64,000 nt of DNA, taken from assembly GCF_900116105.1 (NCBI RefSeq), contig NZ_FPAC01000001.1, forward strand, positions 1,788,862 through 1,852,861, read 5' to 3'. The notes below the pieces were generated by a model that saw only the letters and a list, made by a program, of their open reading frames with translations, did not search any database and was not told where the DNA came from. The translations under genes and the position numbers were made by a program. This stretch comes from Paenibacillus sp. 453mf. GTDB taxonomy: Bacteria > Bacillota > Bacilli > Paenibacillales > Paenibacillaceae. Below are positions 39,149 to 42,497 of this stretch, piece after piece. Every line of letters starts with the position of its first letter. Positions within the stretch are counted from its first letter, which is position 1.

Positions 39149-39727
39149 CTACTTCGCATTCTTTGCGAGAACCGACAAATAATTTGCAGCCGTCAGCATC
39201 GGCTGTTTGTCCTGATTGGTCAGGCTGATAATCAATGCTCCCTCCAGCAAGGAAATGACCAATAACCCCGTTTCTCGTGCTTTCTCCTCACTTATGCCAT
39301 CCTTAATGAGATTCCTGGCAATCACTTGCTGCCAATCTGCAAATACTCCTTGACAAGCTTCTCTCAGCTGATGACTAATGCAAGAGGTCTCAACGGCTGC
39401 CCAGAAGCTGAATGGCAAAAAACCGGTGAATCCAGCTGCTTCAGTCTCATCAGCAAGCTTATGAACGAATAATTGTATGACATCCCCCGTATTGTCATTA
39501 GCCGCAAAGCACGCTTCGAATTTCTGCAATATATCCTCATTAGCTTTTTGAATACATTCGTGTGCAAGCTCTTCCTTACCATGCGGGAAATAATGATACA
39601 ACGAGCCTTTGGGTGTATTACTTTCCTTAATGATCTGATTTAGACCGGTCGCATGATATCCCTGTGAAAAAAACAGTCTGGCTGCTGTATTAACGATGCA
39701 TTCTTTAGCGTTAGACTTCTCACTCAA
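39149..39727 (-). CDS. LmrA/QdoR-like TetR repressor
   Basis: A 192-residue TetR regulator of the LmrA/YxaF type: HTH with 'GYHATGLNQIIKESNTPKGS' (residues ~24-43) followed by 'LYHYFPHGKEELA', and a C-terminal domain with 'AETEAAGFTGFLPFSFWAAV'-like composition. TTG start at 39727 after AAGGATG. It should repress itself and the downstream MFS exporter by binding the box at 39751-39767, and be released by drug-like or flavonoid ligands. Confidence 0.88.
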   Translation of the reverse strand: MSEKSNAKECIVNTAARLFFSQGYHATGLNQIIKESNTPKGSLYHYFPHGKEELAHECIQKANEDILQKFEACFAANDNTGDVIQLFVHKLADETEAAGFTGFLPFSFWAAVETSCISHQLREACQGVFADWQQVIARNLIKDGISEEKARETGLLVISLLEGALIISLTNQDKQPMLTAANYLSVLAKNAK

Positions 39728-39750
39728 GCAGAGTCACATCCTTATGCATT

Positions 39751-39767
39751 ATAACGATTGGTCTATA
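39751..39767 (-). promoter_or_regulatory. LmrA-box operator
   Basis: The minus strand reads ATAGACCAATCGTTATA, matching the B. subtilis LmrA/QdoR operator ATAGACCAGTCACTATA in all but three bases. It lies 24 bp upstream of the repressor start. Confidence 0.75.
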
Positions 39768-39975
39768 TAATTAAAACCATATCGCTGCATACTGTCAAGC
39801 ATTATTTTGAGAAATCAGCTTCACATCGTCACAGTCAGAAAAAAATGAATTATTTAATCGCCATGCACCATCATACAAAGCCTATATGTACCTAATACAT
39901 GATCATAATTAAATCCGTGTTAAATCTATAGTTCAATATAAAATTTTGAGAATTTCGTAGCCTGCTAATGCTTGA

Positions 39976-40004
39976 TTGACCTCCTATTGCGCTTACTGTA
40001 ATAT
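39976..40004 (+). promoter_or_regulatory. Sigma-A promoter of the receptor/pro-peptide cassette
   Basis: TTGACC (39976-39981), a 17-bp spacer and TAATAT (39999-40004), 40 bp before the ATG of the receptor gene. This is a near-consensus promoter. Confidence 0.75.
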
Positions 40005-40044
40005 ATAGTAAATATTATGAAAATTATGGCGAGGAGAGGAATAA

Positions 40045-40920
40045 ATGAGTGTACATTTTCCTTACGATGAGCCTCTGGATCTGGACTCTATAGTCAATTT
40101 GATTCAATCAAACTATACAATTGAGAACTGGGAAGAGGTTCTATCCTTATCTGATCAGCTTATGCAGCTAGCCAAAGAAGTTCATCAAGAGCTTATCGAG
40201 ACAGACTCCACGTCACATGTTTATAAAGACCATATCATTTATTACTTTGGATACAGTCATCTTATGAATGGTCTCTCCTATCAGAAGCTGGGTGATTTCA
40301 CCAAATCAAGAGAGTACATCTCCTTCTATGCCAACCTGGATTGGCTTGATGATTCCACAGAAACGGGCAAATATCTGATCGAACACTTCAAATTCTTCTC
40401 TACTGCTAATGAATTACAGCTCGATATTCTGGATGGCAAGCAGGACAGGCTGCCTGAATATGTACAATTCTTAGACGCTAACCCCGATCAAGTACTTCAA
40501 GGCTTAATCAATATCCTTCGTTCTGCTAATCAATTTAACTATGACGTCGATTCCATCATTACTCACCTATCAAATTTCGTAGAAGGCTACACGCATTACA
40601 ACGATAAAGTAAGAGCAGCACATTACTTGTCCTACCAATATCAGCTCGCCCTATACCGTAATATGAAACAGGAACAATCAACCGCAATCGATATTACCCT
40701 TCATATTCTGGATGCAGCTGATGAAATGAGGAATGACAAGTATTTCAAAAAAGCAATCTCCTTGTTTGAAATTCTTAGAAAATTTGGTACTGTTTCTCAA
40801 CTCAAAACGTGTTATGATATACTCAATAAAATTCTTATGAGAGGAGATCTCCCAAATGAAAAAAGGTATTCTAGCCGCTCTGACAGTGTTGGGTCTGTTC
40901 ATCTTCGTAACTTATCCTGA
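40045..40920 (+). CDS. RRNPP-type peptide receptor (TPR only, Alo/Rap-like)
   Basis: A 291-residue all-helical cytoplasmic protein made of tetratricopeptide-like repeats: 'YYFGYSHLMNGLSYQKLGDF' then 'TKSREYISFYANLDWL', and further repeats to residue ~265. This is the peptide-binding half of RRNPP regulators (Rap/AimR/Alo group), but without the N-terminal HTH found in DNA-binding members; the start is well supported (GAGGAGAGG and the promoter), so the missing HTH is real. Such proteins bind an imported short peptide and control a partner protein. Its 3' end overlaps the gene for a small secreted pro-peptide by 65 bp, and the final ~20 residues are translated from that overlap. Confidence 0.75.
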   Translation: MSVHFPYDEPLDLDSIVNLIQSNYTIENWEEVLSLSDQLMQLAKEVHQELIETDSTSHVYKDHIIYYFGYSHLMNGLSYQKLGDFTKSREYISFYANLDWLDDSTETGKYLIEHFKFFSTANELQLDILDGKQDRLPEYVQFLDANPDQVLQGLINILRSANQFNYDVDSIITHLSNFVEGYTHYNDKVRAAHYLSYQYQLALYRNMKQEQSTAIDITLHILDAADEMRNDKYFKKAISLFEILRKFGTVSQLKTCYDILNKILMRGDLPNEKRYSSRSDSVGSVHLRNLS

Positions 40921-40978
40921 TTTTGTACCCAATTCAATGCAGCTTCTTGACCACGGTTCTGAATTTAGACCTAAATAA
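40856..40978 (+). CDS. Candidate secreted signalling pro-peptide (Phr/AloP-like)
   Basis: A 40-residue product. ATG 40856 follows GAGGAGATC with a suitable spacer, in a different frame from the receptor. It begins 'MKKGILAALTVLGLFIFV' (Lys-Lys then a hydrophobic core, a Sec signal) and ends in a short polar tail 'MQLLDHGSEFRPK', from which a penta- to octapeptide could be cut. In Paenibacillus AloP precursors the mature signal often contains an SHG-like core near the C-terminus, and 'DHGSEF' fits that layout. The gene ends 40 bp before a perfect 18-bp-stem terminator. The mature peptide is an inference. Confidence 0.72.
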   Translation: MKKGILAALTVLGLFIFVTYPDFVPNSMQLLDHGSEFRPK

Positions 40979-41017
40979 TCAACAATTCCCTTGCTAACTA
41001 TGACCTACATATGAATT

Positions 41018-41062
41018 GGCTATTCACAACACATGGTTCATGTGTTGTGAATAGCCTTTTTT
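41018..41062 (+). terminator. Strong terminator of the receptor/pro-peptide cassette
   Basis: A perfect 18-bp stem (41018-41035 with 41039-41056), 3-nt loop, followed by six T. Confidence 0.95.
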
Positions 41063-41109
41063 CATTAACATATCAAGATTTAATGTTATTCTCTTCTCTT
41101 GCTATAAAT

Positions 41110-41152
41110 AAAAAAGATCACTTGGGATTATTTTCTCACTTCCCAAGTGATC
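41110..41152 (-). terminator. Terminator of the alkaline phosphatase gene
   Basis: A 12-bp perfect stem GATCACTTGGGA (41116-41127) with its complement at 41141-41152; the minus strand continues TTTTTTATTTATA. Confidence 0.85.
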
Positions 41153-41183
41153 ACGTTATTCTAGGGTCTCAGCAAAATTCCGC

Positions 41184-42497
41184 TTATTTTCCTGGAGTAA
41201 ATTTAATCTTTAGCGCTTCTGCCATTAACACAGGCAAATCGGTATTCTCATGAAGTCCGGTAAATAGATCCGCACCCGGGCCATATGCATACAACGGTAT
41301 GTCTACACCCGTATGGTTCAGACTTGACCAGCCAACATTTGCTCGTGCAGAGACAATTTCATTAATCGTAATTGACGGCTGTTCGGAAGACTTAATTAAC
41401 TGAGCCTCATCATCTGTAAGATCAATTGCAGTGTATTCCTTCACAACCTCTTTTATATTACTGCGAGTGGAATCAAGCTTGGTTACCATATAATCACCGG
41501 TAGCCGTTACATTTCGAATCACCTCTAGATCTACATCTCCTTGACCGCTTCCGCCAACGGACATACCTCCTGTGTCATGATCCCCTGCTACAACGACCAA
41601 CGTATTCTTGTCCTTCTTAGCAAATTCCAGTACAGATTCCAGAGCCTTCTCAAATGCTTCCGAATCCTTCATTGCCCAGGCTGCATCATGATCGTGACCT
41701 GCCCAGTCAATTTGGCTTCCTTCGACCATAAGGAAGAACCCATCTTTATCCTTGTTGAGTACCTTCAATGCCGTTTCTGTCATTTCTTTCAGGCTAGGCT
41801 GATTCGTCGTTTCACGGTCCAGTTCAGGCGCCAGTCCATCTTCCGCAAATAATCCAATCAGCTTGTTCGATCTTTCAGCACGCTTCAAGTCAGCTTTGCT
41901 CGAGATGTACTGATAACCATCCTCTTTTGCTTCATTGATAAGAGAGTCGGGGAAATATTTTTTCCCACCACCCATAATGACATCTACATCATTATCGATA
42001 AGCTGTGGAGCAATAGCCGCTTCATCCGCACGGCTGGCTACATGAGAGGCGAATACAGCCGGTGTTGCATGCGTAATGGTAGAAGTTGCAACTAAACCTG
42101 AGGACTTGCCTTTTTCCTCCATCGCTTCAAGAATGGTTTTGAGCTCTTTGCCATCAGGTGAAGTGCTGATCATACCGTTGTTTGTTTTAACACCAGTTGC
42201 AAAAGCGGTGCCCGCTGCAGCTGAATCCGTAATCTCTGAATTTGCAGAGTATGTACGATGCATCCCAACTAATATAGAATCCAGTGCTGTTTCTTCTCCT
42301 TTATACCAACGGTAATTCGTGACATATGAAGCGGAGAAGCCATCTGGAACCATAAAGATGACATTTTCGACTTGTCTATTATTATTTTGATTCCCCTTTG
42401 CATCTAAGATGGGCAAGTGACTTCCAGCGGTTATTGTTCCAAGAGCGATTGCAGAAACAGCTGTAATCGTTATAGCCTTTTTTCTAAATGTGTTCAT
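41184..42497 (-). CDS. Secreted alkaline phosphatase (PhoA/PhoB type)
   Basis: A 437-residue precursor with an N-terminal signal peptide ('KKAITITAVSAIALGTITAG'; no lipobox). The PhoA-family catalytic core is intact: metal ligand D52 ('MVPDGFSA'), nucleophile S92 ('ITDSAAAGTAFATG'), 'EGSQIDWAGHDHDA' and 'VAGDHDTGG' for the metals, and a late 'WSSLNHTGVDIPLYAYG' His. It releases phosphate from monoesters outside the cell. ATG 42497 is preceded by AAGGAGG. Expression under phosphate limitation is usual, but I cannot make out a clear Pho box upstream. Confidence 0.93.
   Translation of the reverse strand: MNTFRKKAITITAVSAIALGTITAGSHLPILDAKGNQNNNRQVENVIFMVPDGFSASYVTNYRWYKGEETALDSILVGMHRTYSANSEITDSAAAGTAFATGVKTNNGMISTSPDGKELKTILEAMEEKGKSSGLVATSTITHATPAVFASHVASRADEAAIAPQLIDNDVDVIMGGGKKYFPDSLINEAKEDGYQYISSKADLKRAERSNKLIGLFAEDGLAPELDRETTNQPSLKEMTETALKVLNKDKDGFFLMVEGSQIDWAGHDHDAAWAMKDSEAFEKALESVLEFAKKDKNTLVVVAGDHDTGGMSVGGSGQGDVDLEVIRNVTATGDYMVTKLDSTRSNIKEVVKEYTAIDLTDDEAQLIKSSEQPSITINEIVSARANVGWSSLNHTGVDIPLYAYGPGADLFTGLHENTDLPVLMAEALKIKFTPGK

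Follow-up and report, generated by a model that had tools for sequence, protein, structure and literature searches.

An AloR–AloP-like peptide-pheromone cassette of Paenibacillus with a predicted receptor that lacks the HTH

Introduction

The AloR–AloP (Alo) systems of the Paenibacillaceae are the closest described relatives of the cassette reported here. In the sections of Voichek et al. (2020; PMC7425212) on which we draw, all Alo receptors are stated to carry an N-terminal HTH, the hexamer tested for AloP13 is SHGRGG and AloR13 is reported to control a Spo0E-like gene. The portions of PMC12700828 used here give AloR as HTH-9TPR and place it in one structural clan with AimR, the receptor of the AimR–AimP (arbitrium) systems of Bacillus phages, which has an HTH according to the part of PMC9765709 cited. 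Rap receptors of the Bacillus Rap–Phr systems act on proteins and are without an HTH (excerpts of PMC9765709 and PMC7425212). The relevant passage of PMC9765709 names them as the only HTH-less members of RRNPPA, to which PMC12700828 adds subfamily 17; where that source, in the same portions, names a loss (Rap, subfamily 17), the HTH is treated as ancestral. Our literature search found no description of an HTH-less Alo branch; supplementary lists, which lay outside this search, may hold members that have passed without remark.

We examined a stretch of 64,000 nucleotides from Paenibacillus sp. 453mf (hereafter the window), for which a first-pass annotation made from the letters alone had proposed a self-contained receptor and propeptide cassette of RRNPP design, citing Rap–Phr, AimR–AimP and Alo as models. 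Our reading is that this is probably a functioning peptide-pheromone cassette whose receptor belongs to an HTH-less branch of AloR–AloP and would control a separately encoded protein.

Results

Layout of the locus

The features of the cassette are collected in Table 1. The receptor and propeptide genes overlap by 65 bp in different frames, which bears out the 40-residue out-of-frame ORF of the first-pass annotation. The perfect-stem terminator described there was likewise recovered, with a fold of -33.1 kcal/mol (z -6.84).

Table 1. Coordinates (window positions) of the receptor/propeptide cassette and its expression signals
Feature	Position	Strand	Description
Receptor gene	40045-40920	+	291-aa ORF; predicted HTH-less AloR-like peptide receptor, TPR-like sensor domain only
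AloP-like propeptide gene	40856-40978	+	40 aa; MKK, hydrophobic stretch, C-terminal signal region (predicted)
Promoter	39976-40004	+	-35 TTGACC 39976-39981, 17-nt spacer, -10 TAATAT 39999-40004
Receptor ribosome-binding site GAGGAGAGG	40031-40039	+	read by eye; close relatives have similar sites
Propeptide ribosome-binding site GAGGAG	40841-40846	+	within receptor gene; read directly; similar in relatives
Codons of predicted signal hexamer DHGSEF	40949-40966	+	aligned with tandem hexamers of related precursors
Trailer codons RPK (three)	40967-40975	+	directly 3' of DHGSEF codons
Intrinsic terminator	41018-41062	+	perfect 18-bp stem 41018-41035/41039-41056, 3-nt loop, six T

The promoter, which had been called near-consensus, is present as a site but is not by itself above chance, since 39700-41250 contains four promoter-like sites against 6.1 expected. 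Relatives of the receptor at 107 loci (numbered with the prefix L) yielded 95 distinct sequences when identical ones were counted once. The form TTGACC-N16..18-TANNNT stands upstream of 35/66 distinct short and 11/29 long relatives, as against 6/126 other ORFs; of these six, one is itself another receptor and three are a single gene in three close species. A looser pattern, TTGACN...TANNAT, was found for 30/66 short and 7/29 long relatives and for 6/126 other ORFs. Unremarkable when taken alone, the promoter of the window has a form shared by many relatives and may be described as of conserved form. At three other loci (L042 ~4932, L049 ~4930 and L056 ~4900) GTCAA stands five bases after the -35 TTGAC of the receptor promoter; this inverted repeat, absent from the window, is a possible candidate operator.

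The cassette lies between a divergent TetR-type gene upstream and a convergent alkaline-phosphatase-type gene downstream (both named by eye). In a comparison of 22 loci with their 10-kb surroundings, neighbour families recurred only within groups that share one genomic neighbourhood; those present in at least 3 of the 22 were confined to the groups L043/L046/L047 (with L050 or L055) and L060-L062, and shared neighbours were accordingly dropped as a pointer to what the receptor acts on. A 12-nt inverted repeat that reaches from the region of the propeptide start to that of the terminator tail was ascribed, by eye, to A/T richness; the 3' ends of relatives that were compared did not show it.

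The receptor matches the sensor half of AloR

Comparison of 10 close relatives of the window receptor with 29 long relatives by hhalign gave a probability of 100 and an E-value of 1.2e-45, with residues 8-284 of the window family, nearly the whole protein, paired with AloR13-type residues 208-485. The long set is headed by a 487-aa receptor that we take, from the adjacent homologue of AloP13 (96% over 23 aa), for the probable AloR13 orthologue. Relative to this type, the window receptor is without the HTH and some 200 N-terminal residues. As the first-pass annotation had claimed, no Pfam HTH model matched the window protein, and none was among the matches listed (25 of 34 families) for 44 short relatives. 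The 29 long relatives matched HTH_26 in 15 cases and HTH_3 in 10 at E<=0.1, and the N-terminus of the long-type profile, when compared with solved structures, matched mainly HTH proteins (R-M controller proteins, SinR). Given that the published Alo receptors are all stated to carry an HTH, the window cassette belongs to an HTH-less branch and does not follow the ordinary Alo design.

The protein had also been described as a 291-residue TPR-only protein. Its size and its alignment with the sensor half stand, but the window protein itself matched no Pfam TPR model at E<=1; TPR_2 matched 24/44 short relatives at E<=0.1. By homology, the window receptor would have a TPR fold with a peptide groove. 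A PTS_IIA match (E 0.0022, below its cut-off) was taken as a helical look-alike, a sequence search of solved structures with the window receptor returned nothing usable, and searches of Pfam, NCBIfam and PHROGs with both window proteins gave no useful family.

In an unrooted tree of the sensor domain (94 rows), 63 short receptors lie on one side of a branch with support of 100/99. The 29 long receptors lie on the other, together with two short ORFs (189 and 273 aa) that we took for truncated copies. L065 was left out of the tree because it had 146 aligned residues as against the 180 required.

Of the models cited in the first-pass annotation, Alo is the one that a sequence relation convincingly supports: the profile comparison reached the sensor half of AloR, but models of Rap and AimR did not match. 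The cassette shares with Rap–Phr a two-gene arrangement of receptor and propeptide and a receptor without an HTH. It differs in its peptide and in lacking a match to RapH_N (the control, Rap of phage phi3T, scored 4.5e-25), and hhalign against the same phage Rap was unconvincing (probability 0.7%, E 0.082). With AimR–AimP it has in common a receptor gene followed by that of a propeptide, secreted in AimR–AimP and predicted to be so here, but AimR possesses the HTH that the window receptor lacks. The AimR model PF22871 did not match the window receptor (control AimR 1.4e-116) and profile similarity to AimR was unconvincing (probability 6.6%, E 0.0055, 39 columns; 0.8% in a second comparison). 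Likeness to AloR13–AloP13 extends from the homologous sensor domain to a short ORF with a hydrophobic N-terminus at the receptor 3' end, a propeptide start that overlaps or touches that end, an xHGxxx hexamer at or near the C-terminus and, in part of the family, the TTGACC promoter form; the difference lies in the missing N-terminal HTH and the separate branch. Judged by sequence, the cassette is of RRNPP type and is an HTH-less variant of the AloR–AloP family, or stands beside it, from a common stock.

Conservation of the receptor/propeptide pair

Relatives at E<=1e-45 occur in 8/75 genomes of the genus (16 places altogether), and a family-level search gave a match at E<=1e-40 in 20/245 genomes. 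The closest named receptor relatives are those of Paenibacillus sp. TCA20 (97% identity) and FSL H7-0326 (96%); named genomes account for 25 loci, of which 21 have a propeptide with the HG motif. Thirty plasmid records contain relatives, every one below 60% identity. Among phage records, relatives were present in 1/50,697, and viral contigs yielded none with the two patterns searched.

The first-pass annotation had made its proposal depend on conservation of the short frame beside related receptors. An overlapping propeptide is kept next to 12/12 distinct receptors at 52-100% identity (that of the window counted in), starting 58 or 64 nt before the last receptor base. Four receptors at 42-44% identity (L003, L039-L041) have no such short frame at the 3' end. 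In the wider set, a hydrophobic short ORF bearing HG was found at the 3' end of 36/66 distinct short and 15/29 long relatives compared with 3/130 other ORFs, by a criterion chosen post hoc, after the sequences had been seen; the control ORFs came from the same loci, and one of the three is a true second cassette in L054. Without HG the rule hardly discriminates (46/66 short, 23/29 long, 57/130 controls).

Among the 30/66 short receptors that fail the HG rule, 17 belong to a clade described below, four to the L003 group and eight are others, several of them truncated (L030, L064, L065, L073, L086, L095, L096, L106). The remaining one is L057, which has a 103-aa precursor and hence was scored as peptide-less by a filter set at 70 aa. 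For the short receptors L008, L026 and L087, the peptide starts within 3 nt of the receptor end and not well inside it. A receptor-tail motif, G..[ND]E, is present in 30/36 short receptors with a peptide as against 1/30 without, which suggests overprinting by the ribosome site and start of the propeptide; this explanation fails for long receptors, where the motif occurs in 2/15 with a peptide and 3/14 without.

A conserved hexamer in the propeptide

The 12 close propeptides have in common the sequence [DN]HG[SA][ED][YF] near the C-terminus, followed by two to six residues, and a signal-like N-terminus together with the hexamer is conserved next to receptors down to ~30% identity. SHGRGG of AloP13 has the same xHGxxx frame as DHGSEF. 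Several related precursors contain the hexamer in tandem. Those of P. cellulositrophicus, P. rhizosphaerae and Paenibacillus sp. XY044 (L060-L062) end in NHGANY-DTA-NHGANY-SIQ-NHGANY. The L057 precursor (L057:1328-1639, Paenibacillus metagenome bin Fux382_bin13), which adjoins a receptor 40% identical to that of the window, repeats NHGAEY eight times with SAL or SPL between the copies, the final one forming the extreme C-terminus. Two near-identical hexamers (NHGANS and NHGANY) occur in L134, and the long-type L101 has two copies of SHGDGY.

These arrays indicate that the signal unit would be a hexamer, with three-residue spacers in the longest arrays, and DHGSEF followed by its RPK trailer fits such a unit. 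Pairwise comparison of 10 window-clade sequences (45 pooled pairs, not independent of one another) gave a pN/pS of 0.15 for the hexamer codons (126 synonymous differences over 150 sites, 85 non-synonymous over 660); over 36 short-type sequences, again with non-independent pairs, the value was 0.31. By this measure, the six codons are under purifying selection. The earlier proposal that the DHGSEF region provides the signal is thereby sharpened, and the tandem hexamers of related precursors make DHGSEF very probably the signal core. The signal-like N-terminus and the tandem hexamers also suggest secretion of the propeptide and trimming to a C-terminal peptide, in which the RPK trailer would call for an additional trimming step.

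Receptors in the genome of the window

The window genome encodes three receptors of the short HTH-less type. A second (L002) is 66% identical to that of the window and has a propeptide containing SDHGADYEGR with the same overlap. The third (L003) is 43% identical, its tail is missing and no propeptide was seen. L003 and L039-L041 represent an orphan further receptor of the window's species group, without the C-terminal tail that overlaps the propeptide elsewhere; this group is possibly a listener to the other peptides.

The long-type profile recovered from this genome the three short receptors only, matching from profile position 191 onward. A profile of the HTH half gave no match there, and an HTH-bearing AloR was not found. 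Among eight genomes with window-type receptors, the HTH-half profile had no match in six and a single weak generic match in two (E 5.9e-6 and 1.8e-5, ~70 positions); it had 4 to 26 matches in four other genomes of the genus.

A clade of short receptors paired with XRE genes

In one clade of short receptors no propeptide could be recognised. At 33/33 of the clade's loci (17/17 members in the first set and 16/16 in a second, these being orthologous loci and not independent cases) a stand-alone, divergent XRE gene lies ~170-280 nt upstream of the receptor (L009, L011, L012, L014, L015, L017-L023, L025, L027-L029, L068, L115-L128, L132, L133). The second set comprised 20 places picked by receptor match and length, of which 16 fell in the clade. 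The XRE protein matches Pfam HTH_3 at 2.1e-18. Other short receptors of both sets gave no match to it. Among long receptors, for which the comparison covered little upstream DNA, a match of 48-50% lies at the far downstream edge of L072, L082 and L092, and one of 28 aa at the upstream edge of L080. The plasmid of P. polymyxa M1, with a two-hexamer propeptide and a divergent HTH gene ~450 nt upstream of the receptor, is an exception to the rule that XRE accompanies only receptors without a peptide.

Several types of XRE gene occur (48-100% identity to the query), two such genes are present at five loci, and the remaining flanks were unlike one another among five loci read. Together, the varied types and differing flanks indicate that a slot is conserved, not one gene. 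XRE type and intergenic repeats vary even among close relatives. At 12/17 loci with the first XRE type (at least 84% identical), a palindrome, GTACTTATAAGTAC, occurs between the XRE and receptor genes, and might be a putative XRE operator.

The pairing suggests that in this clade the sensor and the DNA binder reside on separate chains, as in a split Alo receptor; by extension, the window receptor probably acts on a separate protein. Beside receptors of the window's clade there is no XRE gene, and in the window genome we found no close homologue of the clade XRE, the best match being a generic 44% over 68 aa.

Discussion

As the sensor half of AloR without its DNA-binding half, the window receptor would relay its signal by protein contact. 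In the reading that we favour, one promoter would give rise to a two-gene message, and the N-terminal signal of the propeptide would direct its export, with trimming to yield the hexapeptide [DN]HG[SA][ED][YF], here DHGSEF after loss of RPK. The peptide would then be re-imported and bind the TPR-like groove of the receptor, whose state, bound or unbound, would be relayed through contact with a protein encoded by a separate gene and not by direct DNA binding. This partner would most likely be a transcription regulator, as in the related clade where it may be of XRE type. Export, trimming, import, binding and the partner contact with its direction are all steps we infer, and the peptide-less clade paired with XRE may work differently from that of the window. 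The first-pass annotation had held that the receptor must act on another protein; we would lower this from a necessity to an inference, which the XRE-paired clade and the failure to find an HTH-bearing AloR in the genome make likelier.

A protein target might alternatively be reached in the manner of Rap, with the receptor inhibiting a response regulator (Spo0F, for example) or dephosphorylating it, and the peptide relieving this effect. Rap receptors likewise act on proteins without an HTH (PMC9765709 and PMC7425212, as excerpted above), and control of a Spo0E-like gene by AloR13 touches the same pathway (PMC7425212, same excerpt). We nevertheless regard such an action as unlikely given that RapH_N, which readily recognises phage Rap, is missing, the profile similarity to Rap is unconvincing and the window protein opens directly with its AloR-sensor-like part. 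Alternatively, the receptor could be a decoy or buffer that has no partner downstream and, by binding hexapeptides after their import, leaves less free peptide for other receptors. This would fit a receptor without a detected HTH or a conserved neighbour, in a genome with three related receptors, similar hexamers (DHGSEF and DHGADY) and one receptor that is peptide-less. However, no HTH-bearing AloR was found there to be buffered, and a conserved peptide of its own would be needless for a pure decoy, so that we give this possibility little credence.

It could also be argued that the overlap arose by chance, the short frame being no gene and the TPR-like protein having another task. Short frames are common, the promoter alone is not above chance, and a hydrophobic short ORF in itself follows 57/130 control ORFs. 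This view is largely contradicted by the conservation of the signal-like N-terminus and hexamer to ~30% receptor identity, by frequencies clearly above those of controls when the HG motif is required and by codons apparently under purifying selection, and we consider it highly improbable.

More broadly, and with slightly less than even confidence, we propose that a branch of Alo gave up DNA binding and forms a further HTH-less line of RRNPPA beside Rap and subfamily 17. Sensor and DNA binder would be separate in this branch, with an exchangeable divergent XRE in the peptide-less clade and a trans-encoded partner in the window clade, and the Alo signalling of a whole genome would run through HTH-less receptors only. 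A broad HTH-less Alo branch, if real, would be a further peptide sensor shifted from DNA to protein control. A ready model is at hand in the XRE-adjoined clade, natural precursors with up to eight hexamers and a genome with three HTH-less receptors in which no HTH-bearing one was found; with these, signal and partner become directly testable.

Two further arrangements were observed. On the P. polymyxa SC2 (L136:1495-2364) and M1 (L137:1468-2349) plasmids, ORFs recorded as hypothetical proteins are short Alo-type receptors; their propeptide frames, missing from the feature table of the record, end in DHGAEY and NNHGANS. L054 contains tandem cassettes, in which another receptor (L054:6171-7082), accompanied by a propeptide that ends in FNHGVDYDG, lies just downstream of the first.
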